Virus record (IMG/VR): IMGVR_UViG_3300037336_000053
Location: 59,363 to 123,362 of that record
Source of the DNA: a virus
Strand: one strand, 5' to 3'
Length of the DNA stretch: 64,000 bases
In this document: in pieces, positions 2,905 to 55,341 of the stretch
Numbering within the stretch: position 1 is the stretch's first letter
Layout: every line of letters starts with the position of its first letter
Notes under the pieces: generated by a model
What the model was told of the DNA's origin: nothing
The model's input: the letters and a program-made list of their open reading frames with translations, nothing else
The model's database searches: none
Program-made: the position numbers and the translations under genes

Positions 2905-3495
2905 TTAGCTGATCAATTCATATCGTGCAGTTGCTTTATTAAACATCACCAACCCCTGTTTCACTAGGGCAAAGACAATACTCTCAGATTCGGCATGTAG
3001 TTTATTGTGTTCTGCTACGCTGGTCAGAAACAAATTTTCTATTTTATTATTTTTTTTATCGCCATCGATGTGATGTACTATTTCTCCGCGGGCGAGTCCT
3101 CGTTCTAGATAACATTCCATTACAAACAAGTGTTCCCGTATACACCTATATCCACCTTTTCTATAGGGATAATCTTTGCCTATATAAACTTCTGGATATC
3201 CATCTTTACCATTAACCACCTTCCCTAAGTTAGGTATAAATTTATTCACAACTTTTGAATCGTATCCTGCAACACTAGCGAGTTTATTTAATCCCACTTT
3301 GCTAATACAGGTTTTACAATATGCTTTCACATTGGTATCATACTTTCCATTTCGTGCTTTGGAAAATTCTATAGTACAATTATCACACTTCCAATGCGTT
3401 AAAGTTTTAGTTCGAGTATATTCTGTAAGTTTGGCAAACTTACTTTTTTTTGTATAGGCATTAGTTTCTGTGGTTTCAAATAGGAACATGTACAT
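2905..3495 (-). CDS. Free-standing HNH homing endonuclease
   Basis: A 196-residue HNH endonuclease. An N-terminal zinc-finger-like region has CxxC pairs at residues 37-40 and 60-63. The C-terminal half holds the HNH core, with HHIDGDKKNNKIENL supplying the first His pair and Asn, and a downstream EHNKLH. Such genes are selfish elements that cut neighbouring DNA in related phages. It lies just downstream of iscA and the intein-bearing iscU, so the Isc block has been invaded twice. A truncated relative of its N-terminal half is encoded at 31758-32045. Confidence 0.88.
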   Translation of the reverse strand: MYMFLFETTETNAYTKKSKFAKLTEYTRTKTLTHWKCDNCTIEFSKARNGKYDTNVKAYCKTCISKVGLNKLASVAGYDSKVVNKFIPNLGKVVNGKDGYPEVYIGKDYPYRKGGYRCIREHLFVMECYLERGLARGEIVHHIDGDKKNNKIENLFLTSVAEHNKLHAESESIVFALVKQGLVMFNKATARYELIS

Positions 3496-3556: not shown

Positions 3557-3883
3557 TTAAATACGAAAGCTACTACCACAACCACAACGATCGCGTTCGT
3601 TTGGGTTTGAGAAATCAAACCCTTCATTTAATCCATTACGTATCCAATCTACTGTCATACCATCTAAGTATGCTAGTCCTTTGGCATCTATTAACACTAC
3701 AAATTCAGGCTGAGCAAAATTGGTTACGCCTGCTTCTGCTTCATACACATCTACATACTCAAAAGTATACGCCAACCCACTACATCCTGTAGTTTTAACA
3801 CCTAGTCTAACTCCGTCACCGTGTCCACGATGTTTAAGAAGCTGTGTTATTTTTTGCTTAGCCTTGTCTGTTAAGGTAATCAT
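3557..3883 (-). CDS. iscA: IscA-type iron-sulfur carrier
   Basis: A 108-residue A-type carrier that takes Fe-S clusters from a scaffold and delivers them to target proteins. The three family cysteines are present: the TGCSGLAY motif near residue 35 and the C-terminal CGCGSSF. It lies 27 bases downstream of iscU, in the same direction. It differs clearly from the second A-type protein at 5320-5649, so the phage carries both an IscA-like and an ErpA-like carrier. HesB/IscA proteins occur in other marine phages; a pair flanking a scaffold protein is less usual. Confidence 0.93.
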   Translation of the reverse strand: MITLTDKAKQKITQLLKHRGHGDGVRLGVKTTGCSGLAYTFEYVDVYEAEAGVTNFAQPEFVVLIDAKGLAYLDGMTVDWIRNGLNEGFDFSNPNERDRCGCGSSFRI

Positions 3884-3910: not shown

Positions 3911-5302
3911 TCAATGCTTGGCTCGGTAATCTGCCACCGCTGCTTTGATAGCGTCTTCTGCAAGAATACTACAGTGTATCTTAACAGGAGGCAGTGATAG
4001 CTCTTCTGCCAGTTCGCTGTTCTTGATCGCGCCTGCCTGATCTAGAGTCATACCTTTGACCATTTCAGTAATCAAACTGCTGGAGGCAATGGCTGAACCA
4101 CAATTATGTGAACCTACTCGTTCTGAGAAAAACACATGAGCGCCGTCTTCCAATTTAAGATCGTATACCACAACCTTCTTATCATCCCGTTCGCACCCTC
4201 TTAGTTGATTGTGATGAGTAACCGCTGACACTGACACAATTTTCATGCCATTGTGGATAAAGTTTTGTACCTGTTTCAACGAGGTATCAATTTCTTCTAC
4301 AGCTAAAAATAAGGAGTCATATCCGGCTGAAGCTAATTGTTGCTTACGATTTACCACATAATCGGATTCATCAGATCGATCCTGCATAAATTTTGGCATA
4401 TTTTTAGTGTATACTTCGATGCATTTTTTCTTGCCAGGAACAACAAAGTCTGGACTAACTGGCCCAGTACTTGATTGTATCCATACTTTACCTGAACACC
4501 ATTTTGCAGCTACGTTATTTTTTTCAAACAAGTTAATATATTTTTGTTCTATGCTAGTTGGGACGGAACGGTCTATATTCGCCATACCTTGTCTCCATTT
4601 ATCCACATATACAGGATTTCCCCAATTTTTTCTGGAGGCTTCTGCCGATCGTTGTTTTTTTAACGGCAAATCCTTGCACACATATCCTGGCTGATTTTGC
4701 GGTAACACAGAGTGGTCAAACTGTGTATTCCACTCTGTCATTCTTTTGCTGTTTTTTTCTTTCAAATCAACTCTGTGTCGATTGTTAGTGAGAATCCTTA
4801 ACTCATGTTCAGTGATTTCATACAGTTCTTGCCCAGCCACTAGTTGTTGTGCTTCAACTGGAGTGTTATCAGCGTTCCAAAAAATATGTTCTTTAGTACA
4901 TATTAGACTAAAAGTTTTAGATTTAATATTTTTTCTACTTGTTTCTCTTTGAAACGTTACTACTAATAAATCATCAATTGTAACTGAATGTTTGAGTACC
5001 GCTCGAATCTTTTGATTAACGATGTTAGTTCCGTTCCACGCTAATACTTCGTCACCAATGATTAGGTCACTTATTTTTTTTGATTTGGTTGGAGTATTGA
5101 TTAGTGCATTACTAGTAAGGCAGCCATACGTTTTAAAACGCGCATCAATGATAACATCGTCTACGACTTTGATTTGCAACTTCATCACGTCACCACAAGC
5201 TGGCGCGCCGACCATTCCAGTACCAACGGTTTCGTCTATTTCAAACTTTCCCACATTGCGTGGATTTTCGTAGTGCTCGACTACTGCTGCTGAATATGCC
5301 AT
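3911..5302 (-). CDS. iscU: IscU Fe-S scaffold protein interrupted by an intein
   Basis: The 463-residue reading frame is IscU split by a 340-residue intein. The N-extein (residues 1-60) carries the ligand pair Cys36/Asp38 in APACGDVM and ends at FKTYG. The C-extein (residues 401-463) begins CGSAIASSS, whose first Cys corresponds to Cys63 of E. coli IscU, and contains IHCSILAED with the last His/Cys ligands. Splicing would give a 123-residue IscU with all cluster ligands, close to the 128 of E. coli. Because the +1 splice residue is itself a cluster ligand, unspliced protein cannot be a working scaffold. Neighbours are ErpA upstream and IscA downstream. No cysteine desulfurase is visible, so host IscS would have to supply sulfur. 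Confidence 0.95.
   Translation of the reverse strand: MAYSAAVVEHYENPRNVGKFEIDETVGTGMVGAPACGDVMKLQIKVVDDVIIDARFKTYGCLTSNALINTPTKSKKISDLIIGDEVLAWNGTNIVNQKIRAVLKHSVTIDDLLVVTFQRETSRKNIKSKTFSLICTKEHIFWNADNTPVEAQQLVAGQELYEITEHELRILTNNRHRVDLKEKNSKRMTEWNTQFDHSVLPQNQPGYVCKDLPLKKQRSAEASRKNWGNPVYVDKWRQGMANIDRSVPTSIEQKYINLFEKNNVAAKWCSGKVWIQSSTGPVSPDFVVPGKKKCIEVYTKNMPKFMQDRSDESDYVVNRKQQLASAGYDSLFLAVEEIDTSLKQVQNFIHNGMKIVSVSAVTHHNQLRGCERDDKKVVVYDLKLEDGAHVFFSERVGSHNCGSAIASSSLITEMVKGMTLDQAGAIKNSELAEELSLPPVKIHCSILAEDAIKAAVADYRAKH
4103..5122 (-). mobile_element. Intein with Vsr-like (PD-(D/E)xK) homing endonuclease
   Basis: Residues 61-400 of the iscU frame form an intein. Block A begins CLTSNALINTPT; block B is TKEH at 136-139; blocks F and G are VYDLKLEDGAHVFF and VGSHN followed by Cys. 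This gives the standard Cys1, terminal His-Asn and Cys+1 chemistry. The middle (about 185-345) is an endonuclease. A NUMOD-like segment (RSAEASRKNWGNP, 218-230) is followed by Glu252, PDF at 284-286 and IEV at 295-297, which resembles the Vsr-like nucleases seen in other phage inteins rather than LAGLIDADG. All splicing residues are present, so activity is expected. The endonuclease class is inferred from motif spacing. Confidence 0.88.
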
Positions 5303-5319
5303 TATGTTATCCTCTTATA

Positions 5320-5649
5320 TTAAACTGAAAAACTGCTGCCGCACCCACATGTACTTGTAGCACCTGGATTAGAAATACTGAAGCTGCTGCCTTGCAAGTC
5401 TTCTTTATAATCTACGACCGATCCAACTAAATATTGCATACTCATAGCATCAATTAGAACAGTAACATTCTCGCGTTCTATTGTGAAGTCGTCATCATTC
5501 TGCACTTCATCTAATGTAAATCCATAAGTGAACCCGCTGCATCCACCACCTTGAACAAACGTTCTAAGTTTAATTTCAGGATTATTTTCTTCAGCAAGAA
5601 GATCTTGTATTTTTACAAATGCTGCTTCGGTTATTGTTAATTGATCCAT
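5320..5649 (-). CDS. erpA: ErpA-type iron-sulfur carrier
   Basis: A 109-residue A-type carrier. [14 protein letters not shown] near residues 31-44 is the ErpA-style signature, and CGCGSSFSV at the C-terminus supplies the other two cysteines. ErpA normally hands clusters to late acceptor apo-proteins. It lies 17 bases upstream of iscU and starts the block ErpA-IscU-IscA. An ACTAAATA late-type element at 5735-5742 lies about 90 bases upstream. With phage ferredoxin (14556) and Fpr (34495), it points to Fe-S proteins being important during infection. Confidence 0.92.
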
Positions 5650-17808: not shown

Positions 17809-18330
17809 TTATCTCAGGAACTCTCTCCAATCCAGGTCATATTGGATTGAATCTATTTTATGAACCCCAATAAGAAATAAAACGTAGGAACTGACGCTGC
17901 TGCCGCGGCCTACACCCCAAACGATATTATTCTCACGCATAAAGTCCACAAGATACTTCATGTAGCATAACAGTGGCAACATTCCACGTTCGTCAAATGC
18001 ATCAAACTCTTGTGTCAAACGTTTCTTTTTTTCTATAGTATCGCATTGCGCTAAACAAAAGTCATAGATAGGATATGTTTTATATTCATCAGGCATGAAC
18101 CATTCCGACTGTAACGCACCGTCAAAAGTCTTTTGGTCTACATCTAGAGGAATATATTTTGTAAGTTCAGGGAGATATTGTTCACGCATTGCTGCGTTAA
18201 ACTTTTCTATATCATCTGAAGGATCACATAGTACTACATGACACTTGTCAACATGACCACTATAGATCATATCAACGAGGTCGCAATTAGTAAAGCGTGG
18301 AATACCTAGTTCATCTGTTTTCATAAGCAT
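17809..18330 (-). CDS. DNA polymerase III alpha (DnaE)-like fragment
   Basis: A 173-residue protein related to a piece of bacterial DnaE. The C-terminal VWGVGRGSSVSSYVLFL-IGVHKIDSIQYDL segment matches the GRGS region of the DnaE palm, and the preceding helices fit too. The frame ends (WREFLR) before the region that would hold the catalytic PDxDxDF aspartates, and no PHP domain is present, so it cannot be a polymerase. Similar short DnaE-like genes occur in T4-like marine phages. It may bind primer-template or a replisome partner. Confidence 0.75.
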   Translation of the reverse strand: MLMKTDELGIPRFTNCDLVDMIYSGHVDKCHVVLCDPSDDIEKFNAAMREQYLPELTKYIPLDVDQKTFDGALQSEWFMPDEYKTYPIYDFCLAQCDTIEKKKRLTQEFDAFDERGMLPLLCYMKYLVDFMRENNIVWGVGRGSSVSSYVLFLIGVHKIDSIQYDLDWREFLR

Positions 18331-33062: not shown

Positions 33063-33302
33063 TTACCTCTTTAATTCGTGTAACAGGAATTCTTTGGGAT
33101 CGCACCAGTAGGTTTCAAAACAGGCTTCTCCTGGCCCTGTTACCATACTTGTTACAACTTCACAACGTTTGAACCAAATATATTTCCCAGATAGATAACA
33201 CTGTCTAGGTAACAACGAGAGCTTCTGCTCTTGATGTATTCGTCTCTTGTTGAACATCCATTGATCGGGCAAGCCCATGCTTATTTTTTCTGGTATTGGC
33301 AT
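33063..33302 (-). CDS. Small conserved protein, paralogue of the protein at 10449-10673
   Basis: A 79-residue protein whose LPDQ start, aromatic core (GKYIWFKRCEV) and ending (DPKEFLLHELKR) mirror the protein at 10449-10673. Its first ~100 bases overlap the 3' end of uvdE in another frame, so uvdE's C-terminal tail is probably a by-product of the overlap. Function unknown. Confidence 0.55.
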   Translation of the reverse strand: MPIPEKISMGLPDQWMFNKRRIHQEQKLSLLPRQCYLSGKYIWFKRCEVVTSMVTGPGEACFETYWCDPKEFLLHELKR

Positions 33303-34320
33303 AGTTATATAACTCTATTGATGCTAAATTCTTAAATTTACTCTCCGCCATAATATCTGCGTATTCAAGGAACGATAACGCATACTCATTTACAAGAGGA
33401 TTAGGATATCTGTCGCTATGCGCTCGCAATTTAGCCTTCTTATGTCCTGCTTCTAATAGTGCTGGAAAGTTAGGCATAGTATCGTGTGCAAATCCCTCAG
33501 GTAGTGCAGTGTCTCTACTATACGAATAATGTATTGCAGGGCGTACACCTCTCCAAGAATCTACTATGCGTTTAAATCTATCGTCGGTTGGTGAAAGGTA
33601 CTCTCCTTCACGACACCACGTATGGTGTAAATCAAGTACAAGGGCACAATCGTTGACAAGTTCGAGGCTTGAATCAATGCCCCATTTGTTTTCGTCGTTT
33701 TCGATTGTGATGCAGTTTCTTGCTTCAGGTGAAAGTCGGCGTAACGCTTGTCGGATACCCTCGGGGCCTTTTCGACCGGAGATATGCACGTTGCATTTGA
33801 AATCTTGGAAGGTCTTGCCGTAGCCCATCCAGCGTACCATATCTGCATGATATTCAAACTCCTCTATACTCCGCTCTACTATGCCAGCGTCATCACTAGC
33901 AAGTACAGTAAACTGGCCAGGATGCATAGACAAACGTACATCAAGCCTACGAGCAGTCTCGCCCACCTTGGCAAACTCTCTTTCACAATAGGCCCTAACG
34001 TCTGGTAGTCTCCAATAGTACCGCCAATCCTGCTGAGTGTAAACAGGAAGACAATCGCTGCCGAGTCTAACCATTCTAAGACCTTCAGGTAAGCTACCAA
34101 CATATTCAATTAATCTCCCGTAAGCTGCAATGTTGTGTTGCATAATATCCCACAACCGTTGCTCTGCAACTTCTTTAGTTTGACGGTTAAGCCATTGTAC
34201 AGTAGTTGACTTAGTATTTAGTGGCCGCTGAATTTCTTCTAGAAGTTTTTTAGGTTGAGTTTGATCTGGGTGCATGTATTTGCATGCGAATCCTATACGT
34301 TTAATAGTCGAATTTGTCAT
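33205..34320 (-). CDS. uvdE: UV-damage endonuclease UvdE
   Basis: A 371-residue TIM-barrel endonuclease that nicks DNA 5' of UV lesions and other distortions, using metal ions. IGFACKYM at the start, RLSMHPGQF, CNVHISGRKG, ITIENDENKWG, LVLDLHHTWC and IHYSYSRD carry the conserved His/Glu/Asp ligands. The ATG at 34320 is preferred over an upstream in-frame codon because it gives the family's IGxxC start and overlaps the upstream gene by only 20 bases. In a sunlit marine phage it would repair UV damage without photoreactivation. Confidence 0.9.
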   Translation of the reverse strand: MTNSTIKRIGFACKYMHPDQTQPKKLLEEIQRPLNTKSTTVQWLNRQTKEVAEQRLWDIMQHNIAAYGRLIEYVGSLPEGLRMVRLGSDCLPVYTQQDWRYYWRLPDVRAYCEREFAKVGETARRLDVRLSMHPGQFTVLASDDAGIVERSIEEFEYHADMVRWMGYGKTFQDFKCNVHISGRKGPEGIRQALRRLSPEARNCITIENDENKWGIDSSLELVNDCALVLDLHHTWCREGEYLSPTDDRFKRIVDSWRGVRPAIHYSYSRDTALPEGFAHDTMPNFPALLEAGHKKAKLRAHSDRYPNPLVNEYALSFLEYADIMAESKFKNLASIELYNYANTRKNKHGLARSMDVQQETNTSRAEALVVT

Positions 34321-34498
34321 ATTTTTTGCCTTGTGCCTTAAGTTCTTGCCAATTAGTAGGATATCTATAATCACCGTTTAGCAAATGTGTGCCTGAATTG
34401 TGTAGTGCGTATTGCCAGCTTGCCCACCAACCGTATTTTGGGCTCAGCTTTTTATACCATCTTACAAATAGTATAACACGCTTTTTAATGTTTGTCAA
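34301..34498 (-). CDS. Small protein with TTG start, between fpr and uvdE
   Basis: A 65-residue Trp/Tyr-rich frame (SPKYGWWASWQYALHNSGTH, YPTNWQELKAQGKKYDKFDY). No ATG is available near the start; TTG at 34498 overlaps the fpr stop as TTGA, which suggests termination-reinitiation. The same TTGACA is also the -35 box of a sigma-70 promoter, so start codon and promoter share bases. Function unknown. Confidence 0.5.
   Translation of the reverse strand: MTNIKKRVILFVRWYKKLSPKYGWWASWQYALHNSGTHLLNGDYRYPTNWQELKAQGKKYDKFDY
34470..34498 (-). promoter_or_regulatory. Sigma-70 promoter upstream of uvdE
   Basis: TTGACA (34493-34498), 17-base spacer, TATACT (34470-34475) on the minus strand. It would allow uvdE to be expressed early and independently of the upstream operon. 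Confidence 0.8.
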
Positions 34499-35190
34499 CC
34501 TACAAACGCCCGCTCTTGTACAAACGTACCCTGTGTCTTTTTACTGCCTTCACAAAATCCTAATGTACTAAAATGTTCTTTTAGGTCGTTGTTAAATCCT
34601 ATACTGCCACACAACATCACACGTTGAAAAGACGGATCGTCAATCTTAACAGTCCCGTCCTCCATAAATTTTTGAATACGTCCTTTTAGTTTGGCATCTT
34701 CTTGTGTCACTGTGCTAATATATTTAATAGGCATTTCGTTTAAAAAGTCTCTGTAACAATCTTGTTCGGCATTTAATCTAGTTGTCCATGTCACTGTTAT
34801 GTTTTCAAACAAGTCGTATGTTTCAGGATCACGCAGTATACTAATAAACGGAGCAATGCCTGTGCCACTTGCCATCATTACTAAGTGCCCGCCTAGTTCT
34901 AAGTTAGCAAGCAATAATGTGCCAGTTGGTTTCTCTCCCACTTCTAGCATATCGCCTACTTGTATATTTTGTAACTTGCTAGTAAGTGGGCCATTTGGTA
35001 CTTTGATACTGTAAAATTCAATCCAGTCATCGTACGGTCCGCTTGATATACTGTATGCCCGTTTAGGTGTACCTTCCATACTTATCATTACAAACTCACC
35101 TGCTGTAAATCTGTATGTTGACGGCCGTTCAACACGTATTCTAAACAGTGTGTCTGTGTAGTGTTTAACATCAATTACGCCTAGTAGCAT
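34495..35190 (-). CDS. fpr: Ferredoxin/flavodoxin-NADP+ reductase (Fpr)
   Basis: A 231-residue FAD enzyme passing electrons between NADPH and ferredoxin. The FAD site KRAYSISSGP, the NADP-binding ASGTGIAPF and VMLCGSIGFNND, and a C-terminal aromatic end (FVQERAFVG) match bacterial Fpr. With phage FdxA at 14556 it forms an electron-transfer pair that could serve ribonucleotide reductase, Fe-S assembly or oxygenases. It lies 1 base from the glycosyltransferase upstream. Confidence 0.93.
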   Translation of the reverse strand: MLLGVIDVKHYTDTLFRIRVERPSTYRFTAGEFVMISMEGTPKRAYSISSGPYDDWIEFYSIKVPNGPLTSKLQNIQVGDMLEVGEKPTGTLLLANLELGGHLVMMASGTGIAPFISILRDPETYDLFENITVTWTTRLNAEQDCYRDFLNEMPIKYISTVTQEDAKLKGRIQKFMEDGTVKIDDPSFQRVMLCGSIGFNNDLKEHFSTLGFCEGSKKTQGTFVQERAFVG

Positions 35191-35191
35191 A

Positions 35192-36031
35192 CTATCTCCA
35201 ATTGTCTACCACCCATGAATCTTCGCAATTATGTGGTTGAGGATCTCCGTGGAATACTGCTATGCAACATTCTACTCTTGGAGTAACATTTTCAATTGTT
35301 TTCAATATACGATTGCCTTTTGTTCCGCCTGGCGAAAATTCTTTTGTTTTTCGAACTTCCCATTTCCAACTTAATATCCAACTATCTGGATAAAGCATTG
35401 CTTGCTGACTTCTAGTTGCTTCGTACAGCCAATCCTGATCACCAAACAGTCTACGCTGAATGTTGACTCTGTCTTTATCAAATTCTTCCCAAACATGACT
35501 TAATTGTCCAGTTTTAAATCGTATAACACTGCTGTTATATTTTGGCCATTTAGGCCGCATTGCTCTAGTAAAGTCTCGTATTGTACACCAATGATTTGGT
35601 TGATAGGTAAACAGTTTATCTATATTACTTGCAATTACAACATCTAGATCAATGTAAAGTATAGTACCCTTTATTGGGAGATCATTTGAAAACATGTAGG
35701 GCTTGTACCACCAGCCTGATAATCCCTTGGGCAATGATATTACTTTTATATTTGAATCTAATCCGTTTGCATCTTCAGTCATGCACACAAATTCGTAATC
35801 TATTCTACAATTACGTTTAACCATATTGTACAAACGATTAACATAATCAGCAGAATACTTTGTGCCATGTTTTAAGCATAGCACAAAGAATTTATTTTCT
35901 GTTACCGGAGCAGGAACTGTAACAATTTCAACAGGAATAGATTGATGTTTAGCTTCTTTTTCCTGCTTACGTTGTTCTTTTATTCTGCGCCATTCCTCTT
36001 TGGAATATTGACTCTTGTCAATCTTAGCCAT
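35192..36031 (-). CDS. Glycosyltransferase-like protein (GT-A fold)
   Basis: A 279-residue protein from the ATG at 36031 (MAKIDKSQYSKEEWRRIKEQ), which overlaps queD by 8 bases. After a charged N-terminus, NKFFVLCLKHGTKYSADYVN begins a GT-A-like domain, with ILYIDLDVVIASN giving the DxD metal/sugar-nucleotide motif and a later FGDQDWLYE. It may glycosylate virion proteins, host surface or modified DNA bases; the substrate is not evident. Confidence 0.72.
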   Translation of the reverse strand: MAKIDKSQYSKEEWRRIKEQRKQEKEAKHQSIPVEIVTVPAPVTENKFFVLCLKHGTKYSADYVNRLYNMVKRNCRIDYEFVCMTEDANGLDSNIKVISLPKGLSGWWYKPYMFSNDLPIKGTILYIDLDVVIASNIDKLFTYQPNHWCTIRDFTRAMRPKWPKYNSSVIRFKTGQLSHVWEEFDKDRVNIQRRLFGDQDWLYEATRSQQAMLYPDSWILSWKWEVRKTKEFSPGGTKGNRILKTIENVTPRVECCIAVFHGDPQPHNCEDSWVVDNWR

Positions 36032-36503
36032 TTGCAAATAATATCTTTTGAACTTCAAAAGGTGTGTAGATTGCTGAGTTAGCACCATGCTCTGAACACT
36101 CTGCTGATTCACACCAGCAACGTCCACCGGACATTTCTTTAACCAATGCATCTGCAAAACGCCATGCATGTTCTGCAAACTTCTCTACACCTACGCCGTC
36201 CATTACTACAACTTCTGCTAATCCCATTGCTTCAAGTTCTGAAAATTTATACAAGAACGGATCTTCTCGATCAATTACAGTCTTGTGATCAAAACTATTT
36301 TCAAGCCAAGCCTTCAAAGGTTTTAGCCCGCCAAAGTCTACTGCCCAGTTTTTGTTATCTAATTCTTTACAACCAAATGTAAATTTAAATGCCAAACTGT
36401 AACCATGTAGCAAATGACAGTGTGAATGTTCTGCGTTAGGTTGACGGAACACTGCACTAAGCCCGATCTGATGTCCGTATGTTTTTGTTGAATAGTAAGC
36501 CAT
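36024..36503 (-). CDS. queD: QueD-like 6-carboxytetrahydropterin synthase
   Basis: A 159-residue pterin synthase-family protein. HSHCHLLHGYSLAF carries the catalytic Cys and zinc His residues, SFDHKTVI holds the second catalytic His, and CSEHGANSAIY has the substrate Glu. QueD acts in making preQ0, used for queuosine tRNA or, in some phages, 7-deazaguanine DNA. Other pathway genes (folE, queE, queC, dpdA) are not in this window. It follows a sigma-70 promoter and a TATAAATA element, so it may be expressed both early and late. Confidence 0.85.
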   Translation of the reverse strand: MAYYSTKTYGHQIGLSAVFRQPNAEHSHCHLLHGYSLAFKFTFGCKELDNKNWAVDFGGLKPLKAWLENSFDHKTVIDREDPFLYKFSELEAMGLAEVVVMDGVGVEKFAEHAWRFADALVKEMSGGRCWCESAECSEHGANSAIYTPFEVQKILFANG

Positions 36504-46871: not shown

Positions 46872-46948
46872 TGGTGCTGCCTACAGGAATCGAACCTGTT
46901 TCACCGGGACTTCAATCCGGAGCTATAACCATATCAGCTAAAGCAGCA
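46872..46948 (-). tRNA. tRNA-Phe (GAA)
   Basis: Acceptor TGCTGCT pairs with the 3' strand, the T-loop is TTCGATT, the anticodon loop is TTGAAGT, and CCA is encoded. Last tRNA of the island in reading direction. Confidence 0.9.
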
Positions 46949-46953
46949 TATAC

Positions 46954-47029
46954 TGGGGAGAAGTATGGGAATCGAACCCATATTAACGGAATCACAATCC
47001 GTGGTGTTAACCTTTACACTAACGACTCC
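46954..47029 (-). tRNA. tRNA-His (GTG)
   Basis: Anticodon loop TTGTGAT, T-loop TTCGATT, CCA encoded. An extra 5' G (G-1) fits tRNA-His. The acceptor stem has two adjacent mismatches near pairs 4 and 5. Confidence 0.88.
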
Positions 47030-47036
47030 ATAAAAC

Positions 47037-47113
47037 TGGTGCGCCTGGAGAGACTCGAACTCCCAACCTGCGGTTTCGAAGACCGACGCTCTAATCCATT
47101 GAGCTACAGGCGC
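47037..47113 (-). tRNA. tRNA-Arg (TCG)
   Basis: Acceptor GCGCCTG pairs fully with the 3' strand, D-loop GCTCAATGGATTAGAGC, anticodon loop CTTCGAA, T-loop TTCGAGT, CCA encoded. Confidence 0.92.
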
Positions 47114-47114
47114 T

Positions 47115-47190
47115 TGGTGGTAATGACTGGACTTGAACCAGTAACAGCTTCCTTATGAGGGAAGTGGACTACCATTGTCCTACATTACCA
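47115..47190 (-). tRNA. tRNA with CAT anticodon (Met or lysidine-modified Ile2)
   Basis: Anticodon loop CTCATAA with stem CTTCC/GGAAG, T-loop TTCAAGT, CCA encoded. Because the phage encodes a TilS-like enzyme (62538), this or the other CAT tRNA may be Ile2 reading AUA. Confidence 0.9.
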
Positions 47191-47199
47191 TACTAAAAC

Positions 47200-47276
47200 T
47201 GGAGTGCGTGACAAGACTTGAACTTGCATAAACGAGATTTGCAATCTCGGGCCTAACCATTCGGCTACACACGCAC
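47200..47276 (-). tRNA. tRNA-Cys (GCA)
   Basis: Acceptor GTGCGTG/CACGCAC, anticodon loop TTGCAAA on a CGAGA/TCTCG stem, T-loop TTCAAGT, CCA encoded. Confidence 0.9.
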
Positions 47277-47283
47277 ATAAAAC

Positions 47284-47357
47284 TGGCAGAGGGTACAAGA
47301 ATCGAACTTGTGACAACGGAATCAAAATCCGCGGTTATACCATTTAACTAACCCCCA
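47284..47357 (-). tRNA. tRNA-Gln (TTG)
   Basis: Anticodon loop TTTTGAT, T-loop TTCGATT, CCA encoded. The first acceptor pair is a mismatch (T1, T72), in line with the weak 1-72 pair of glutamine tRNAs. Confidence 0.88.
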
Positions 47358-47362
47358 ACAAA

Positions 47363-47434
47363 CCATATATAAACGTTTTCATTCTGGCCGTTCCAGGGCC
47401 TGCGTTATACGTCTTTGAAAACGTTTATATATGG
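47363..47434. repeat. Perfect 18-bp inverted repeat capping the tRNA-Lys 3' end
   Basis: CCATATATAAACGTTTTC (47363-47380) pairs with 47417-47434 across a 36-base loop. The right arm contains the complement of the CCA end of tRNA-Lys, so in the transcript the CCA and 15 following bases form one side of a long hairpin. The loop holds a GGCC/GGCC mini-hairpin. Confidence 0.9.
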
Positions 47435-47505
47435 TAGGACTGCTCGGTAACGATCCGAGTTCTACTGGTTAAAAGCCAGTTGCTTCACCTTAAAGCTTCA
47501 ATCCC
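47432..47505 (-). tRNA. tRNA-Lys (TTT) with swapped T-loop
   Basis: Acceptor GGGATTG/CAGTCCT, D-stem GCTT/AAGC, anticodon stem ACTGG/CCAGT with loop CTTTTAA, T-stem CTCGG/CCGAG, CCA encoded. The T-loop is ATCGTTA, so the usual T54-A58 pair is A54-T58, and positions 8 and 14 are A and T rather than T and A. All stems pair well, so it is probably functional. Confidence 0.8.
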
Positions 47506-47555
47506 CTATCTTGCCACTCTTGTCACTATTCATGACAGATCTCCTTTAATTAACA

Positions 47556-47633
47556 TGGTACCCGGTGCAAGATTTGAACTTGCGACCCCAACCTTATCAA
47601 GATTGTGCTACTACCAACTGAGCTAACCGGGTA
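47556..47633 (-). tRNA. tRNA-Ile (GAT)
   Basis: Acceptor ACCCGGT pairs with ACCGGGT, D-arm TAGCTCAGTTGGTAG, anticodon loop TTGATAA, T-loop TTCAAAT, CCA encoded. Standard structure. Confidence 0.92.
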
Positions 47634-47637
47634 AAAT

Positions 47638-47711
47638 TGGCATAGGTGCAGGGATTTGAACCCCGATCGACGGTTTTGGAGACCGCTGTGTTGCCATTAC
47701 ACTACACCCAT
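47638..47711 (-). tRNA. tRNA-Trp (CCA)
   Basis: Acceptor ATGGGTG/CACCTAT, anticodon loop CTCCAAA, T-loop TTCAAAT, CCA encoded. First tRNA of the left sub-cluster, 30 bases after the GAAA-capped terminator. Confidence 0.92.
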
Positions 47712-47733
47712 ATAAAACTTTTCACTTATCCAT

Positions 47734-47770
47734 AAAAAAACCCCTGCTTGTATTTCTACTAAGCAGGGGT
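47734..47770 (-). terminator. Rho-independent terminator/attenuator before the left tRNA sub-cluster
   Basis: Minus strand: ACCCCTGCTT then a GTA-GAAA-TAC inner stem, then AAGCAGGGGT and seven T residues. It lies between a sigma-70 promoter (47903-47931) and the first tRNA downstream, so it would truncate that transcript unless read through. Confidence 0.85.
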
Positions 47771-47796
47771 GTATTAATCTTTAACTGACTGTTATG

Positions 47797-47868
47797 TCAA
47801 GATACACTCCTGCCTTCGCTAAACCAGCGAATGCAATGTTGTTTAATCTGTTTCATCATTGTAGTCAT
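47797..47868 (-). CDS. Possible leader peptide (23 residues)
   Basis: A 23-codon frame, MTTMMKQIKQHCIRWFSEGR and three more, lies between the sigma-70 promoter at 47903-47931 and the terminator at 47734-47770. AAAGAGA precedes the ATG. The spacing is like that of attenuator leader peptides, but no run of regulatory codons is obvious. Confidence 0.35.
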   Translation of the reverse strand: MTTMMKQIKQHCIRWFSEGRSVS

Positions 47869-48265
47869 TTTTAAATCTCTTTTAATTTCGTTGTATGTGT
47901 TTATTATACACAGTTATTTATCATTTGTCAACCACTATTAACAATTTAGATAGACTTTTTTAAATAAAAACGGAAGCGAAAAAGCAAGTAATGAACTGTG
48001 CAAAGTGCAGTCGAGATAGCCGTTAGCGTTTCTCACAAGCAAAATACAAAAATCAATATGCACAAGACTCGTATATTTCCAGTTTCAAAGTGCAAACGTT
48101 CTATTAACACTGGAGCATACAAGTACAGACACGTTTCAGGTGTGAGCCAGATTAGTTTATCGTTTAAACTTCAGACGAAGTTGTCAGTAACGACACTGGG
48201 GTCCATCCTCTCTCAATTTCTCTTCCGGGCAGCTTACGCTTCCAACGCATAGCCGCCAAAACTTT
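47869..48265. other. Gene-poor stretch with one promoter
   Basis: Apart from the promoter at 47903-47931 I see no convincing gene. A 28-codon minus-strand frame (48164-48250, MRWKRKLPGREIERGWTPVS) directly follows the stop of the 48266-48832 gene, and an 84-codon plus-strand frame lacks any ribosome-binding site; neither is supported. Confidence 0.4.
47903..47931 (-). promoter_or_regulatory. Sigma-70 promoter before the attenuator and left tRNA sub-cluster
   Basis: TTGACA (47926-47931), 17-base spacer, TATAAT (47903-47908) on the minus strand. The transcript meets the terminator about 130 bases later. Confidence 0.87.
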
Positions 48266-48832
48266 TTAAAGGATGTCTGCTTGCGTTAGAAACGACGCAG
48301 TAGTTTCATCCAATTTGATTTCTGCTTTTACATTTAGCTCTAGCAGTGAATCCTGTAATTTTTGTTTCTTACGTTTTAGTCCTGCAACTTCACGTTTGAA
48401 TTCATTGATTTCAGCAGTATCAAAGATGCCGGTATCAATTGTATCGAGTCGACCGTATAGCCGACTCTCGTCTTTGCTGTTGCGAACTTTGTCCAGCTTG
48501 CCTTCAATAACTGCATCACTTACACGAGCTGTCTTGGTTGCCAAACTGTTGACATGTTGAATGTTTTTCTCTAACATTGCAACTTCTGCCAGCATGTCAT
48601 TGATGCCTTGCGCTGCATTTACACTTGCAACTGCTTTGCGGATTTCAAACAATGCTCCCACTAGTTTGGTACGAGTCGTGTTGTTAGAAACAAAACGAGC
48701 ATGAACAGCATTGATTTGATCTTTGCTGTCTTCGTATTCGTTCAACGAAACACTGGCTTGAAAATCAAGTCCTTTGATTGCTTCATTGATTGATAGCTGT
48801 ATAGCATTTGCCTTACGTAGTGTGATTTGCAT
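48266..48832 (-). CDS. Coiled-coil protein inside the tRNA island, unknown
   Basis: A 188-residue almost fully helical protein (MQITLRKANAIQLSINEAIK, REVAGLKRKKQKLQDSLLEL). No catalytic motif seen. It is conserved-looking (balanced composition, own sigma-70 promoter at 48859-48887) and separates the two tRNA sub-clusters. It could bind RNA or a host protein, but I cannot assign a family. Confidence 0.6.
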   Translation of the reverse strand: MQITLRKANAIQLSINEAIKGLDFQASVSLNEYEDSKDQINAVHARFVSNNTTRTKLVGALFEIRKAVASVNAAQGINDMLAEVAMLEKNIQHVNSLATKTARVSDAVIEGKLDKVRNSKDESRLYGRLDTIDTGIFDTAEINEFKREVAGLKRKKQKLQDSLLELNVKAEIKLDETTASFLTQADIL

Positions 48833-48858
48833 TTTGATTCCTTTTACCTTATGTATTA

Positions 48859-48887
48859 ATTATAATGTCTTTTCTTGATCTTGTCAA
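48859..48887 (-). promoter_or_regulatory. Sigma-70 promoter
   Basis: TTGACA (48882-48887), 17-base spacer, perfect TATAAT (48859-48864) on the minus strand, about 25 bases before the ATG at 48832. Confidence 0.88.
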
Positions 48888-48898
48888 GCACTTTTTAA

Positions 48899-48985
48899 TT
48901 GGTGGAAGATGATGGTAACGCTCCACGTGCCTTGACTTCACTACCTTTAGGAACGGTTTTACAGACCGCCGTAGTGGGTATCTTC
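48899..48985 (-). ncRNA. tRNA-like RNA with GTA (Tyr) loop, no D-arm and swapped T-loop
   Basis: The ends form a perfect 7-bp acceptor (GGAAGAT/ATCTTCC) followed by ACCA. A GCGGT/ACCGT stem carries the loop CTGTAAA (GTA). A T-arm-like hairpin has the loop AGCGTTA. Only 10 bases separate acceptor and anticodon stem, so a D-arm is absent; instead CACTAC there can pair with GTAGTG beyond the anticodon arm. Total length (87) is like a class II tRNA. It may be a variant tRNA-Tyr or a tRNA mimic. Confidence 0.55.
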
Positions 48986-49012
48986 CTTATTTCTTATAAT
49001 CCTATATAAACT

Positions 49013-49086
49013 TGGTACATCGTGACAGGATCGAACTGCCGTCTCTGCCGTGTAAAAGCAGGGCCCTACCATTAGACGAACGATGC
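49013..49086 (-). tRNA. tRNA-Val (TAC)
   Basis: Acceptor GCATCGT/ACGATGT, anticodon stem CTGCT/GGCAG with loop TTTACAC, T-loop TTCGATC, CCA encoded. Confidence 0.88.
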
Positions 49087-49094
49087 ATTAATTG

Positions 49095-49185
49095 TGGCGG
49101 AAGGCTAGAGAGTCGAACTCTAAAGGCGCTATTAACGCTCGACGCATTTCAAGTGCGGTCCCATCGCCAATTGGGTTGGCCTTCC
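49095..49185 (-). tRNA. tRNA-Ser (TGA)
   Basis: Acceptor GGAAGGC/GCCTTCC, anticodon loop CTTGAAA, a long class II variable arm (GAGCGTTAATAGCGC), T-loop TTCGACT, CCA encoded. Confidence 0.92.
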
Positions 49186-49207
49186 TAAGACAAACAAGAT
49201 ACTCTGA

Positions 49208-49281
49208 AGCGGGGGATGGATTTGAACCAACGATCTCTAGCTTATGAGACTAGTGAGGACGACCAGACTCCTCTACCCCGC
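49208..49281 (-). tRNA. tRNA with CAT anticodon (Met or Ile2), no encoded CCA
   Basis: Acceptor GCGGGGT, anticodon stem CTAGT/GCTAG with loop CTCATAA, T-loop TTCAAAT. The 3' end continues TCA, so CCA must be added by an enzyme. The D-arm (AGTCTGGTCGTCC) resembles that of initiator tRNA, but the anticodon stem lacks the three GC pairs of initiators. Confidence 0.85.
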
Positions 49282-49518
49282 ATCAGAATACCCTACTCGC
49301 AATAACTTATACTTACCATTAGTTGTATTGTCTTGTTATGGACAACAATCGCCCTGTTGTCGTTTGCTTTTAACTTGGTAACTAGTATAGAAGCATCGGC
49401 CGATGCCAACTCTACTTTTGTTACTTCAAACTGGATATTCGATGCCTGCAGGACAGAGCGAACATTGCCAGTGCATTAGGCTAGTGGACACAGCCTTTTT
49501 CCAAAACAATACAACTAA
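49282..49518. other. Intergenic stretch between tRNAs, structured, with one unstarted frame
   Basis: This gap is mostly the loop of a 17-bp inverted repeat. It contains a 14-base palindrome (GCATCGGCCGATGC) and a GACAACA/TGTTGTC hairpin. A 61-codon minus-strand frame (49293-49475) without an ATG or GTG begins TGNVRSVLQASNIQFEV, faintly like the start of HisH amidotransferase; I do not count it as a gene. Confidence 0.4.
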
Positions 49519-49522
49519 TGGT
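49315..49522. repeat. Perfect 17-bp inverted repeat capping a tRNA-Glu 3' end
   Basis: ACCATTAGTTGTATTGT (49315-49331) pairs with 49506-49522 across 174 bases. The right arm includes the complement of the CCA end of tRNA-Glu, the same arrangement as at tRNA-Lys (47363-47434) and the second tRNA-Glu (50359-50446). Confidence 0.9.
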
Positions 49523-49593
49523 AACGCTACGGGGAGTCGAACCCCGCTCTTCAGGATGAAAACCTGATGACCTAACCGATAGTCGATAGCGTC
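49519..49593 (-). tRNA. tRNA-Glu (TTC), copy 1
   Basis: Acceptor GACGCTA/TAGCGTT, anticodon stem TCAGG/CCTGA with loop TTTTCAT, T-loop TTCGACT, CCA encoded. Confidence 0.9.
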
Positions 49594-49603
49594 ATATTAA
49601 AAC

Positions 49604-49678
49604 TGGTGGAGGTTAAGGGGATCGAACCCTTAACTCTGCCTTGCAAAGGCAGCGTGTTCCCATTAGCACTAAACCCCC
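49604..49678 (-). tRNA. tRNA-Ala (TGC)
   Basis: Acceptor GGGGGTT/AACCTCC, anticodon stem CTGCC/GGCAG with loop TTTGCAA, T-loop TTCGATC, CCA encoded. The usual G3-T70 identity pair of tRNA-Ala is present. Confidence 0.93.
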
Positions 49679-49683
49679 AATTT

Positions 49684-49757
49684 TGGTCTCCGATGCAAGA
49701 ATCGAACTTGCGCTCCTTGGTCCCAAACCAAGAGTGATACCATTTCACCAATCGGAG
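49684..49757 (-). tRNA. tRNA-Pro (TGG)
   Basis: Acceptor CTCCGAT/ATCGGAG, anticodon stem CTTGG/CCAAG with loop TTTGGGA, T-loop TTCGATT, CCA encoded. Abuts the omega-like gene. Confidence 0.92.
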
Positions 49758-49985
49758 TTATCTAATCTTTCGAATATACTCTAAGCCAATTTCACCGTTT
49801 TGGACTTCAAGTAATGCTGAAATAGGAGCATTAAATTGAGTACCATCATCTTTGTATCTATGTTGCCTTGCAAGCTCTCTTGCTCTTTGCGAAGCAATAA
49901 CTACCATAGTAAACCTATTTCCGATGTTGTCAACAATTTTCTCGTTGTCAAGAAGTCCTATTCGGCTATGTGTCTTGTCATTCAT
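49758..49985 (-). CDS. RNA polymerase omega (RpoZ)-like protein
   Basis: A 75-residue protein with the core of bacterial omega: DNIGNRFTMVVIASQRAREL matches the conserved NRFxLVxxAaxRARxL helix, and PISALLEVQNGEIGLEYI matches the following TVIALxEIxxGxI. Omega wraps the C-terminal part of beta-prime and stabilises RNA polymerase. The gene sits between tRNA-Pro and tRNA-Thr, ending on the base after tRNA-Pro. A phage omega could alter the host polymerase during infection. Similarity is judged by eye. Confidence 0.75.
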   Translation of the reverse strand: MNDKTHSRIGLLDNEKIVDNIGNRFTMVVIASQRARELARQHRYKDDGTQFNAPISALLEVQNGEIGLEYIRKIR

Positions 49986-50010
49986 ATGTTCCTTTTGTTG
50001 TTAAAAATAT

Positions 50011-50084
50011 TGGTGCCCCTTGACAGAATCGAACTGCCGTAGCCTGATTACAAAACAGGTGTAATACCATTATACTAAAGGGGC
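50011..50084 (-). tRNA. tRNA-Thr (TGT), copy 1
   Basis: Acceptor GCCCCTT/AAGGGGC, anticodon loop TTTGTAA on a CCTGT/TCAGG stem with one terminal mismatch, T-loop TTCGATT, CCA encoded. Confidence 0.9.
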
Positions 50085-50358
50085 GTTAATCTACTTATCT
50101 TCGTCTACTAAGCCCGTTTCCGGATTTGAACGTTTTGTTTCATACTGCTGCATCATCAATTCTTGTAACTCAGCAACATCGACTTCAGGTAATCGAGACC
50201 TCGTTTGATGTAATATGTTTCAATATGCAAACTCATTGTAGGTTGGATTTTGCAACCAACATGCAAGCCGAATATTGGCTCTGTCTTGTCTGTTAGACCA
50301 CTACGAGTTTTTGAGGTAATTACTCCCCAATCTGATTCAAGGTAAATTACTCCTTGCT
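50085..50358. other. Intergenic stretch, no confident gene
   Basis: On the minus strand a frame ends QQYETKRSNPETGLVDEDK at about 50091, open for about 34 codons upstream but with ATG only near the end, and no clear ribosome-binding site. It might be a remnant. The rest shows no tRNA or promoter that I can see. Confidence 0.35.
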
Positions 50359-50446
50359 ACCATATAGAAACATCCTAAGTTATCGACTGTTCTTGCGAAC
50401 TCCCTGTGAATAACAATTGGGGGAAATAAAGATGTTTCTATATGGT
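50359..50446. repeat. Perfect 16-bp inverted repeat capping the second tRNA-Glu 3' end
   Basis: ACCATATAGAAACATC (50359-50374) pairs with 50431-50446. In the minus transcript the CCA of tRNA-Glu opens the stem. The 56-base loop contains a nested GTTAT/ATAAC pair and GTTC-GCAA-GAAC, a GNRA-capped hairpin. Confidence 0.9.
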
Positions 50447-50518
50447 ACTCGGTAGGGGATTTGAACCCCTGTAGCCACCGTGAAAGGGTGATGTCCTAGA
50501 CCACTAGACGAACCGAGT
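50443..50518 (-). tRNA. tRNA-Glu (TTC), copy 2
   Basis: Acceptor ACTCGGT/ACCGAGT, anticodon stem TCACC/GGTGG with loop CTTTCAC, T-loop TTCAAAT, CCA encoded. Its sequence differs throughout from copy 1, so the two are not a recent duplication. Confidence 0.9.
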
Positions 50519-50544
50519 ACAGTACAATATTAAAGAACATTTAC

Positions 50545-50562
50545 AGAGTTACGATCAACTCT
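50545..50562. promoter_or_regulatory. Third copy of the tRNA-promoter dyad
   Basis: AGAGTT-ACGATC-AACTCT, a dyad sharing the GTTACGAT(G/C)AAC core with the operator-like repeats in the two tRNA promoters at 51529-51548 and 51616-51635. No promoter boxes are evident around this copy. Confidence 0.4.
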
Positions 50563-50627
50563 TTTTTAACCTATACGTTTATATACAACATATTTTTCAA
50601 ATAAAGTACACTACTTTTTAATAATGT

Positions 50628-50669
50628 TGGTGAGTAGTTACGGACTCGAACTCTCAATCTTTTCGGCAT
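50628..50669 (-). pseudogene. 3' half of a decayed tRNA
   Basis: The minus strand has a T-arm-like GAGAGTTCGAGTCCGT and an acceptor end AACTACTCACCA, but directly upstream lies the CCA of tRNA-Leu (TAG), so the 5' half is missing. Probably a remnant of recombination between tRNA genes. Confidence 0.6.
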
Positions 50670-50746
50670 TGGTGCCCTGGGAGAGACTCGAACTCTCAGC
50701 TTACGGCTTCTAAGACCGCTGTGTTTACCAATTTCACCACCGGGGC
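50670..50746 (-). tRNA. tRNA-Leu (TAG) with short variable region
   Basis: Leu-like D-arm (GTGAAATTGGTAAACAC), anticodon loop CTTAGAA, T-loop TTCGAGT, CCA encoded. The variable region is only about 5 bases, whereas bacterial leucine tRNAs have a long variable arm. One acceptor mismatch (pair 5). Confidence 0.82.
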
Positions 50747-50751
50747 ATTTT

Positions 50752-50830
50752 ACTCTACTGGCACACTCGTGCTCGTCAAATGTCCGGTGAGCTAACCGGT
50801 TCCTTTACTATGTAGAGTCTTTGAGTGTGC
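50752..50830 (-). ncRNA. Pseudoknot-like element between tRNA-Thr and tRNA-Leu
   Basis: Two complementary pairs interleave: ACTCTAC (50752-50758) with GTAGAGT (50812-50818), and GCACACTC (50761-50768) with GAGTGTGC (50823-50830). That order forms an H-type pseudoknot. Between them CCGGT/ACCGG makes a small hairpin. Confidence 0.5.
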
Positions 50831-50837
50831 TTTTATA

Positions 50838-50911
50838 TGGTGCCCCGTGACAGAATCGAACTGCCGACCGCTGATTACAAAACAGCAGTTATACCATTTA
50901 ACTAACGGGGC
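50838..50911 (-). tRNA. tRNA-Thr (TGT), copy 2
   Basis: Acceptor GCCCCGT/ACGGGGC, anticodon loop TTTGTAA, T-loop TTCGATT, CCA encoded. Very similar to copy 1 around the anticodon and T-arm, so the two probably share an origin. Confidence 0.92.
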
Positions 50912-50953
50912 CATATTTTACTTATCATACAGACTGTGCTGTATACTTAAAAC

Positions 50954-51027
50954 TGGAGCGGGATAGGAGAATCGAACTCCTGACATTAGATTGGAAATCT
51001 AAGGTAATACCATTTTACGAATCCCGC
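50954..51027 (-). tRNA. tRNA-Gly (TCC)
   Basis: Acceptor GCGGGAT/ATCCCGC, anticodon stem TTAGA/TCTAA with loop TTTCCAA, T-loop TTCGATT, CCA encoded. Confidence 0.93.
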
Positions 51028-51034
51028 ATAAACT

Positions 51035-51109
51035 TGGCGGTCTCAAGGGGTAACGATCCCCTTCTTCGACAGTGACAGTGTCGTGTGCGTCCATGAACAC
51101 TTTGAGACC
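51035..51109 (-). tRNA. tRNA-Asp (GTC) with swapped T-loop
   Basis: Acceptor GGTCTCA/TGAGACC, D-stem GTGT/GCAC, anticodon stem CGACA/TGTCG with loop CTGTCAC, T-stem AGGGG/CCCCT, CCA encoded. The T-loop is ATCGTTA (A54, T58), position 8 is A and 14 is T, exactly the exchange seen in tRNA-Lys. Confidence 0.82.
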
Positions 51110-51116
51110 TAATTAT

Positions 51117-51200
51117 TGGTGGAGCGTAATGGAATCGAACCATTCGTGGCTTTCGCCGGAGGATTTACAGTCCCCTGCCACACCTTGTAGCATACACTCC
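51117..51200 (-). tRNA. tRNA-Tyr (GTA)
   Basis: Acceptor GGAGTGT/ACGCTCC, anticodon stem GGGGA/TCCTC with loop CTGTAAA, class II variable arm CGGCGAAAGCC with GAAA loop, T-loop TTCGATT, CCA encoded. A normal tRNA-Tyr, unlike the odd RNA at 48899. Confidence 0.92.
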
Positions 51201-53619: not shown

Positions 53620-53826
53620 TCATAGTTCCTCCGCAATTCCTAAAAATTCAGCGGCTGCCAAGAATAGAGCTAGTAATACTACTGAGCTTGTATATATTGC
53701 AACCAAACATCCTGCCAACCGCAACGCACTTTTTACAATACTGATATAAAAGTGTCGCTTGCTTGTGTCTTTAGGTTGAGGCACATGATCTTCATATTTA
53801 ATTGACATTTTATTTACGATTTCCAA
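53620..53826 (-). CDS. Small membrane protein
   Basis: A 68-residue protein with one membrane segment at about 31-60 (LRLAGCLVAIYTSSVVLLAL). ATG at 53808 (MSIKYEDHV) is an alternative start that would remove the overlap with the Bax-inhibitor gene. It lies between two conserved genes in the same direction. Unknown function. Confidence 0.5.
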   Translation of the reverse strand: MEIVNKMSIKYEDHVPQPKDTSKRHFYISIVKSALRLAGCLVAIYTSSVVLLALFLAAAEFLGIAEEL

Positions 53827-54484
53827 ATAGTTGTAGCAAGTGAATAAACAAGTTGATAAAGTCTAGGTACAGTGTTAGTGCGCCCATGACTTCTTGTTTG
53901 CCGGTGTCGCCACCTACACTTACCATTTCACGGATACGCTGTGTGTCATATGCAGTCAAGCCCAAGAACACAATGATAGCAATAGCTGAGATAACCATCT
54001 GCATTAGTGTACTACCAATAAAGATGTTCACAACACTGGCAATAATAATTGCAATTAATCCTACAATCATCATCTGTCCCATTGAGCTTAGATCCTTTTT
54101 AGTAAAATATCCGTAAATGCTCATAGTGCCAAACAGCACCCCTGCACCCATAAAGGCTGTAAAGATACTGCCCATTGTGTAGACTGCAAAGATTGTAGCA
54201 AAACTCAATCCCATTAAGCCAGCAAACGCATACAGAAACATCTGTAGTCCCGACTTGCTGAAATTAGCACTGGCAAAACTCATCACAAGGATTGCGGCTA
54301 ATGGTGCAAATATAACCACCCATTTTAGCATTCCTGTAAAAAAGAATTGCAATAGCTCTGGGCTAGTTCCTACATAGTAACTGACCAGCATGCTGATAAA
54401 CACAGCAATGCCCATCTGAGAATAAACTCTGCCCATTGCTTCATTGATTGCAGAAGCGTCTCTATAATTTGTTGTTGCGTACAT
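53810..54484 (-). CDS. Bax inhibitor-1/YccA family membrane protein
   Basis: A 224-residue integral membrane protein with seven predicted helices. SAINEAMGRVYSQMGIAVFIS at the start, AGLMGLSFATIFAVY in the middle and ITxxGLTAYDTQRIREM near the end match the BI-1/YccA/YbhL family. In E. coli YccA blocks the membrane protease FtsH, so a phage copy could restrain host quality control or control membrane ion leakage. The gene lies directly downstream of clpP, which supports a proteostasis theme. Confidence 0.9.
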   Translation of the reverse strand: MYATTNYRDASAINEAMGRVYSQMGIAVFISMLVSYYVGTSPELLQFFFTGMLKWVVIFAPLAAILVMSFASANFSKSGLQMFLYAFAGLMGLSFATIFAVYTMGSIFTAFMGAGVLFGTMSIYGYFTKKDLSSMGQMMIVGLIAIIIASVVNIFIGSTLMQMVISAIAIIVFLGLTAYDTQRIREMVSVGGDTGKQEVMGALTLYLDFINLFIHLLQLFGNRK

Positions 54485-55112: not shown

Positions 55113-55113
55113 A

Positions 55114-55341
55114 TTAATATCTTCCTTGTTTAGTTGTATGTTGTTTTGGTCCAAGTGTGGTAAATTCCATACCTGCTATATTACCTACGTAAATTTTACC
55201 GTTCCATTTCATATGGATTTTAGTGTTTGCAACGAATGCATTTAGTGAATCGTGCTCACGCACGTCGTCAACTTCTGCTTCTACGCTTTGTGCATTGCGA
55301 GTATTAGTTAATATTGCTGTTTTATCAAATACAGTTTTCAT
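55114..55341 (-). CDS. Small protein next to ClpP, unknown
   Basis: A 75-residue protein ([20 protein letters not shown]) with a likely beta-barrel C-terminus ([20 protein letters not shown]). It ends one base before the clpP ATG and overlaps the gene upstream by 4 bases. The constant position beside clpP might mean an adaptor or regulator, but no family is recognised. Confidence 0.55.

Follow-up and report, generated by a model that had tools for sequence, protein, structure and literature searches.

The iscU gene described here lies on the minus strand of the window, the 64,000-nucleotide stretch of DNA that was analysed. The window is part of a 123,362-base virus record (IMG/VR IMGVR_UViG_3300037336_000053), and the neighbouring genes include phage tail-fibre and clamp-loader families. 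Carrier genes flank it on both sides, one ErpA-like and the other IscA-like, and its coding sequence contains a long insert. The features of the locus, in window coordinates, are:

3557..3883, minus strand: IscA-like A-type Fe-S carrier gene adjoining iscU (NCBIfam IscA 122.9 bits, below the cut-off of 150.6; subfamily TIGR00049 above cut-off)
3911..5302, minus strand: iscU precursor gene, intein included, 463 aa (reading frame open throughout; NCBIfam and Pfam profiles)
3911..4102, minus strand: C-extein and stop codon, with Cys+1 at 4100-4102, the equivalent of E. coli Cys63 (CGSA in 37/37 loci; alignment)
4103..5122, minus strand: intein, 340 aa, codons 61-400, just before the Cys63-equivalent codon (boundaries and fold)
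4103..4108, minus strand: C-terminal His-Asn of the intein (HN in 38/38 inteins and in L122)
4235..4792, minus strand: nuclease-like domain, intein residues ~111-296, limits approximate (invariant motifs; I-Bth0305I catalytic-domain match, E 0.026)
4403..4450, minus strand: PDF...EVYTK motif, intein residues 225-240, candidate PD-(D/E)XK active site with a putative catalytic role (PDF and EVYT in 38/38 inteins and in L122)
4886..4897, minus strand: block B TKEH, intein residues 76-79 (TxxH in 38/38 inteins and in L122)
5120..5122, minus strand: Cys1 of the intein (Cys in 39/39 inteins)
5123..5302, minus strand: N-extein, IscU residues 1-60, ending KTYG (translation)
5320..5649, minus strand: ErpA-like A-type Fe-S carrier gene adjoining iscU (NCBIfam ErpA 162.5 bits, cut-off 117)

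The IscU halves on either side of the insert match Pfam NifU_N (2e-44). The interrupted protein as a whole matches the NCBIfam iscU profile at 2.5e-55, its 185.9 bits lying under the 192.4 cut-off, and Pfam Hint matches it weakly, at 2.4e-4 (21.2 bits, under the 29.7 cut-off). The insert begins CLTSNALINTPT and ends VGSHN, after which IscU resumes with CGSAIASS. The predicted spliced extein is 123 aa long and contains the junction peptide KTYGCGSAIASS. Over its full length, the IscU of the intein-free viral relative L010 aligns with that of E. coli (PDB 2l4x and 3lvl), which assigns the junction KTYG|CGSAIASS to Cys63. By the same alignment, the spliced IscU of the window has the scaffold residues Cys37, Asp39, Cys63, His105 and Cys106 (E. 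coli numbering), its own cysteines being at positions 36, 61 and 104. Cys37, Cys63 and Cys106 of IscU are cluster ligands. An earlier note on this DNA, made from the letters alone, had described a phage IscU with an intein placed exactly at its cluster-ligand cysteine, and this description is upheld: IscU profiles match both halves, the 340-residue insert is a complete intein with its splicing residues, and the Cys+1 that follows HN is ligand Cys63. The 123-residue spliced product that the note expected matches the extein computed from the window ORF in length, and its argument that the precursor would be unable to act as a normal scaffold agrees with IscU chemistry.

A structure model of the intein alone, built from 25 aligned relatives, has a mean pLDDT of 82.1, and its best matches among solved structures are inteins and intein-like domains. 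Foldseek matches the model to the gp41-1 intein (E 5.9e-5), and VIA matches it to the bacterial intein-like domain 2lwy (Z 19.4, 130 residues, 1.5 A) and to the Mtu RecA intein (Z 18.0, 132 residues). As modelled, the window intein has the Hint fold. A model of the whole precursor from six rows was poor (pLDDT 51.9) and was set aside, and PDB sequence matches to 7mcd and 4ys6, beginning at residue 255 or later, were judged to be chance. The class-1 residues Cys1, TxxH, penultimate His and terminal Asn are found in 38/38 inteins and also in L122, with Cys+1 in 37/37 loci; the splicing residues are retained in all 39 full-length copies when the window is counted. There are 29 distinct intein proteins among 38 full-length copies, L122 being additional. 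To judge from these residues, the Cys63 intein probably splices itself.

The middle of the Cys63 intein is assigned, with moderate confidence, to the PD-(D/E)XK nucleases of the Vsr-like kind, and it would be expected to cleave DNA. Residues E192, D225, E236 and K240 are invariant in 25 inteins, and the interval D225-G267 has no invariant His. The predicted fold of this domain resembles the catalytic domain of I-Bth0305I (PDB 3r3p), although the match of chain 3r3p_B to the intein model is weak (Foldseek rank 49, E 0.026, probability 1.00, 21% identity) and concerns a nuclease that is here embedded within a contiguous intein. EDxHD is presumably the motif of the EDxHD/Vsr-like homing endonucleases, a family reportedly described by Dassa in 2009. 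The family is also mentioned in PMC12350094.

Several searches combined place the same intein at one and the same iscU codon in 44 viral contigs, not counting the record that holds the window. The intein profile recovers 38 loci from viral contigs, and a broader profile recovers 39: L131 and the contig of L122 are gained, and L118, which is truncated, is lost. L119 adds one further contig. A pattern restricted to the Asn-Cys junction plus the IscU codons after it finds 41 viral contigs, 38 already known and three new, and the new ones also carry the Cys63 intein (as a control, the junction pattern matched 46/134 loci). The insertion codon is identical in all Cys63 contigs as far as the contigs reach, one side lying beyond the contig end in six of them (L116, L118 and L119 downstream; L154, L161 and L170 upstream). 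Exact boundaries are common to all 38 profile loci, with the N side visible in 38 and the C side in 36. Full-length copies number 39, window included. Among bacterial genome contigs, the Cys63-intein profile returned 82 pattern stretches and no confirmed relatives, this single search being the basis for its apparent absence from bacterial genomes. In annotated phage records the only match to the intein is a weak one to mycobacteriophage portal genes (28% coverage, five records, E ~0.01). IscU itself is matched by eight records of the annotated phage collection, none covering 80% of the query, and by 35 plasmid records, with none covering 80% of the query among the five matches listed. Viral IscU is not rare, contrary to the earlier impression that few such proteins exist: at least 599 viral stretches encode a relative, and IscU had already been described from six genomes of marine viruses (PMC5332604).

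All copies of the interrupted gene are metagenomic, annotated phage records supply no IscU match at 80% query coverage, and one pair of contigs (L001/L085) could include a chimera, all of which would suit an artefact of assembly or classification. Such an origin is nevertheless hardly credible, given that the junction recurs in 44 contigs, many of them diverged in sequence, that L082 is 99.0% identical to the window over 9,031 bases, and that phage tail-fibre and clamp-loader genes are found in the neighbourhood. The ORF lists of L002, L003 and L007 also look phage-like by eye. Chance or artefact was rejected on the strength of the junction common to the 44 viral contigs.

In 73 of the best 80 viral matches (first scan, at least 599 stretches), iscU has no intein. 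This intein-free set is skewed toward the window's own extein because it consists of best matches. Both Cys motifs are present in all 73 alleles, which thus preserve the exact empty site. Profiles of nucleotide identity in 120-nt bins reveal sequence transfer at the Cys63 site among phages, some of it recent. Between L092 and L093, the intein bins are 99-100% identical, compared with 77% just upstream and 88% just downstream; for L092 and L094, the intein is 98-100% identical and the flanks 77% and 84%. L082 and L083 share 91-98% identity over the first ~720 nt, as against 69% upstream and 72-74% in the remaining intein, while L104 and L106 share 87-96% as against 68% on either side. L001 and L085 are identical from the insertion site onward, to more than 1.4 kb past the intein, with 66% identity just upstream, a pattern that could reflect recombination at the site or an assembly chimera. 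The extein topology is no proof of transfer, since a single clade made up of the window, L082 and L083 withstands the AU test (p 0.53); the extein tree has few columns, and 50 of its 93 inner branches are open. The exact shared boundaries, the 73 intein-free alleles and the model whose best PDB matches are inteins together make the case for an intein, and the intein-free alleles and transfer footprints fit a selfish element. Very probably, the window insert is a class-1 intein that carries a nuclease and interrupts an auxiliary iscU gene of a phage, and is a selfish homing element.

Median dN/dS is 0.094 for the intein (21/406 pairs usable), 0.106 for its nuclease part (41/406) and 0.120 for the C-extein (17/406), the pairs outside the usable set being saturated, as most are, or near-identical. 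With such low values, the intein, nuclease and scaffold all look to be under purifying selection. An intein that no longer splices, leaving a gene that gives no working IscU, would be in keeping with the damaged extein frames of five of the 39 full-length contigs: L093, L094 and L113 are broken next to the Cys37 codon, L108 has a stop after the intein, and L114 has a late frame change. This reading is nonetheless very improbable, as splicing residues are retained in 39/39 copies, dN/dS is low in both intein and C-extein, and the extein of the window is intact and differs by one residue from that of L121. The relatives therefore do not appear to be the dead remnants that the earlier note had envisaged as a threat to its reading, even with the five damaged frames. 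In L093 (3424-3560), L094 (near 3928) and L113 (3800-3935), iscU is broken immediately past the Cys37-Gly38 codons by a small insertion with a stop; L093 and L094 share the same insertion, and that of L113 is different. Cuts made at the Cys37 site may have undergone error-prone repair, or the gene may be split.

The position of the intein at a ligand may be explained by its own chemistry. Exactly three cysteines occur in the window extein and in 70 of the 73 intein-free exteins. Since the three cysteines of the window IscU are all ligands, an intein that requires Cys+1 cannot avoid a ligand Cys. The idea that homing targets the best-conserved DNA within iscU is not supported in that simple form: the 24-nt windows at Cys37, Cys63 and Cys106 rank 61, 110 and 117 of 294 in site conservation and are fairly, not exceptionally, conserved. 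In the proposed mechanism, the precursor would be translated whole, and the intein would excise itself by means of Cys1, the TxxH block, His-Asn and Cys+1, joining the exteins into a 123-residue IscU in which ligand Cys63 is restored. The embedded nuclease would cut the intein-free iscU of co-infecting phages, and repair would copy the intein into the cut gene and so spread it among phages. The Cys63 site would be used because the intein needs a Cys at +1 and the cysteines of IscU are its three cluster ligands; it may also be favoured because imprecise loss of the intein there would wreck the gene. An unrelated intein family would exploit Cys37 in the same way, with some phages carrying both.

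This second intein was found in L118, where it lies upstream of the Cys63 intein; GAPA precedes it, and CGDV, whose Cys is the Cys37 equivalent, follows it immediately. Homology and junction searches place it in nine contigs, for two of which (L122 and L129) the viral neighbours were checked, the others being viral by collection label. Pfam Intein_splicing is above cut-off for the Cys37 intein in L119, L121 and L122, and HNH_3 clears its cut-off in L121 and L122 and falls slightly short of it in L119 and L129. L124, L125, L126 and L130 have Cys37 mini-inteins of 155-156 residues without a nuclease, those of L125 and L130 being equal in length and near-identical in sequence. The last two residues of the Cys37 family are Lys-Asn (Arg-Asn in L129), as opposed to the His-Asn of the Cys63 family, and a comparison of the two profiles gives a probability of 5.5%, on which basis the families are treated as unrelated beyond the Hint type. 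Both inteins occur in three contigs representing two distinct sequences: L122, which has a complete frame with both, and L118 and L119, which are 100% identical over the first intein and have the second cut by the contig end. Of the two inteins, L121 has only the one at Cys37; its spliced IscU differs from that of the window at 1/123 residues (339/369 nt identical), and is four residues longer at its end. For Cys106, a pattern with Asn directly before the Cys106 context matched no viral contigs, although an intein with another last residue, or a site with other downstream residues, would escape it; the pattern itself works, as its His version matched 106/130 loci. The viral Fe-S scaffold gene hosts a real, mobile and well-conserved intein that is part of a two-site invasion of cluster-ligand cysteines.

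A relative of the Cys37 intein is found in L134 (586-3936; LR756501.1), a 735-kb phage, within a gene named by eye as ribonucleotide reductase. The two inteins are 33% identical over 84% and differ in host protein. The L134 intein precedes the Cys in NPC|GEQ, which we take to be that of the catalytic N-x-C-x-E motif of ribonucleotide reductase, and it was seen in a single genome that has two accessions. From the Cys-Gly-acid context common to both sites, one may surmise that the IscU Cys37 intein could derive from a ribonucleotide-reductase-type site.

The earlier note had further proposed that splicing could act as a redox or iron switch. In such a switch, oxidation, nitrosation or metal binding at Cys1 or Cys+1 would halt splicing, and IscU would mature only under suitable redox or iron conditions. 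An accessory Cys, or a Cys at -3, that traps Cys1 is one known route to conditional splicing and not the sole one. The stress response of the M. tuberculosis SufB intein is reportedly the subject of one published paper. Cysteine chemistry at both intein junctions would allow a switch. Responses to oxidative stress and to zinc are reported for mycobacterial DnaB inteins (PMC6195587, PMC7360933), and an intein also occurs in a different Fe-S scaffold, the SufB of M. tuberculosis (PMC8891592). Across the 39 inteins, however, no accessory Cys column is invariant: Cys1 alone is, Cys75 and Cys234 occur in 38/39 and others in fewer, though the catalytic cysteines themselves could still act as gates. 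Position -3 has no Cys in any of 37 loci, residues -4 to -1 being KTYG in 34, KAYG in two and KTFG in one. The intein-free iscU in 73 of the best 80 viral matches indicates that phages do without the intein, and landing on a ligand is nearly forced for a Cys+1 intein in IscU. The proposal is accordingly not supported, and a switch is considered unlikely. It may still have evolved atop a selfish intein, as the two readings can coexist. Extended to both sites, the Cys63 and Cys37 inteins would have been recruited as gates on phage Fe-S assembly, splicing only with reduced, metal-free thiols, which is likewise unlikely. Were it true, splicing would draw on the same thiols that later bind the cluster, the precursor would be short of one or two ligands, IscU would be active exactly when it can be loaded, and two inteins in one protein would amount to a two-input gate.

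The intein at Cys63 has several known counterparts. The M. tuberculosis SufB intein has 359 residues and an intact endonuclease domain (PMC8891592). It resembles the IscU intein in having an Fe-S scaffold as host and in its Cys1, block-B His, penultimate His, Asn and Cys+1, and differs in belonging to SUF instead of ISC, in being bacterial instead of phage-borne, and in its host protein and sites (PMC8891592). The mycobacteriophage terminase and TOPRIM inteins likewise lie at functional motifs of phage genes and home into intein-less phages, as tested there in vitro, but reside in other host proteins, whereas two unrelated families here occupy two ligand cysteines of one 123-aa protein (PMC5050341). 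M. smegmatis DnaB also has two inteins in one host protein (PMC6195587), whereas both IscU inteins precede a metal-ligand Cys of a small scaffold and carry two nuclease types. Viral auxiliary iscU genes comparable to the present one, with IscU and A-type carriers, were found in environmental viruses, some of them T4-like, and the word "intein" is absent from the main text of that paper (PMC5332604). Among the open-licence papers listed, none was recognisable from its title and the start of its abstract as dealing with an intein in IscU or NifU. Inteins as such are well known; within the material searched, the IscU host, the two sites taken together and the genes with two inteins seem to be new.

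With these inteins, IscU, the central ISC scaffold, joins the intein-invaded proteins, here as the product of a viral auxiliary gene. Related phage iscU genes with neither, either or both inteins form a natural allelic series, including one pair with spliced products one residue apart. This series offers a way to ask whether an intein placed at a metal-ligand Cys is purely parasitic or has an effect on Fe-S biogenesis as well. Viral iscU may also be missed or mis-called when it is split by inserts of 155-374 residues.

Other observations concern the surroundings of iscU and the remainder of the window. An ORF at 2905-3495 of the window, near iscU, has an HNH_3 match (8.3e-9). Further ORFs near iscU look endonuclease-like by eye (L002:4412-5011, L002:6419-7180 and L093:2844-3461) and have no Pfam match at 0.001. 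Two of the flanking endonuclease-looking ORFs of L002, L093 and the window overlap the start of iscU, and the iscU locus may be a homing hot spot. The window has a large set of auxiliary genes, which encode UvdE (33205-34374), a flavin/NAD reductase-like protein (34495-35190), a PTPS-family protein (36024-36503), a Bax inhibitor-1-like protein (53810-54484), a ClpP protease (54498-55154) and a PP-loop protein (62538-63260). At 46872-51200 there are 21 clustered tRNA genes, every one of them on the minus strand. A 173-aa ORF at 17809-18330 has a partial match to DNA polymerase III alpha (PF07733, 1.3e-11) and may be one piece of a polymerase gene that was interrupted.
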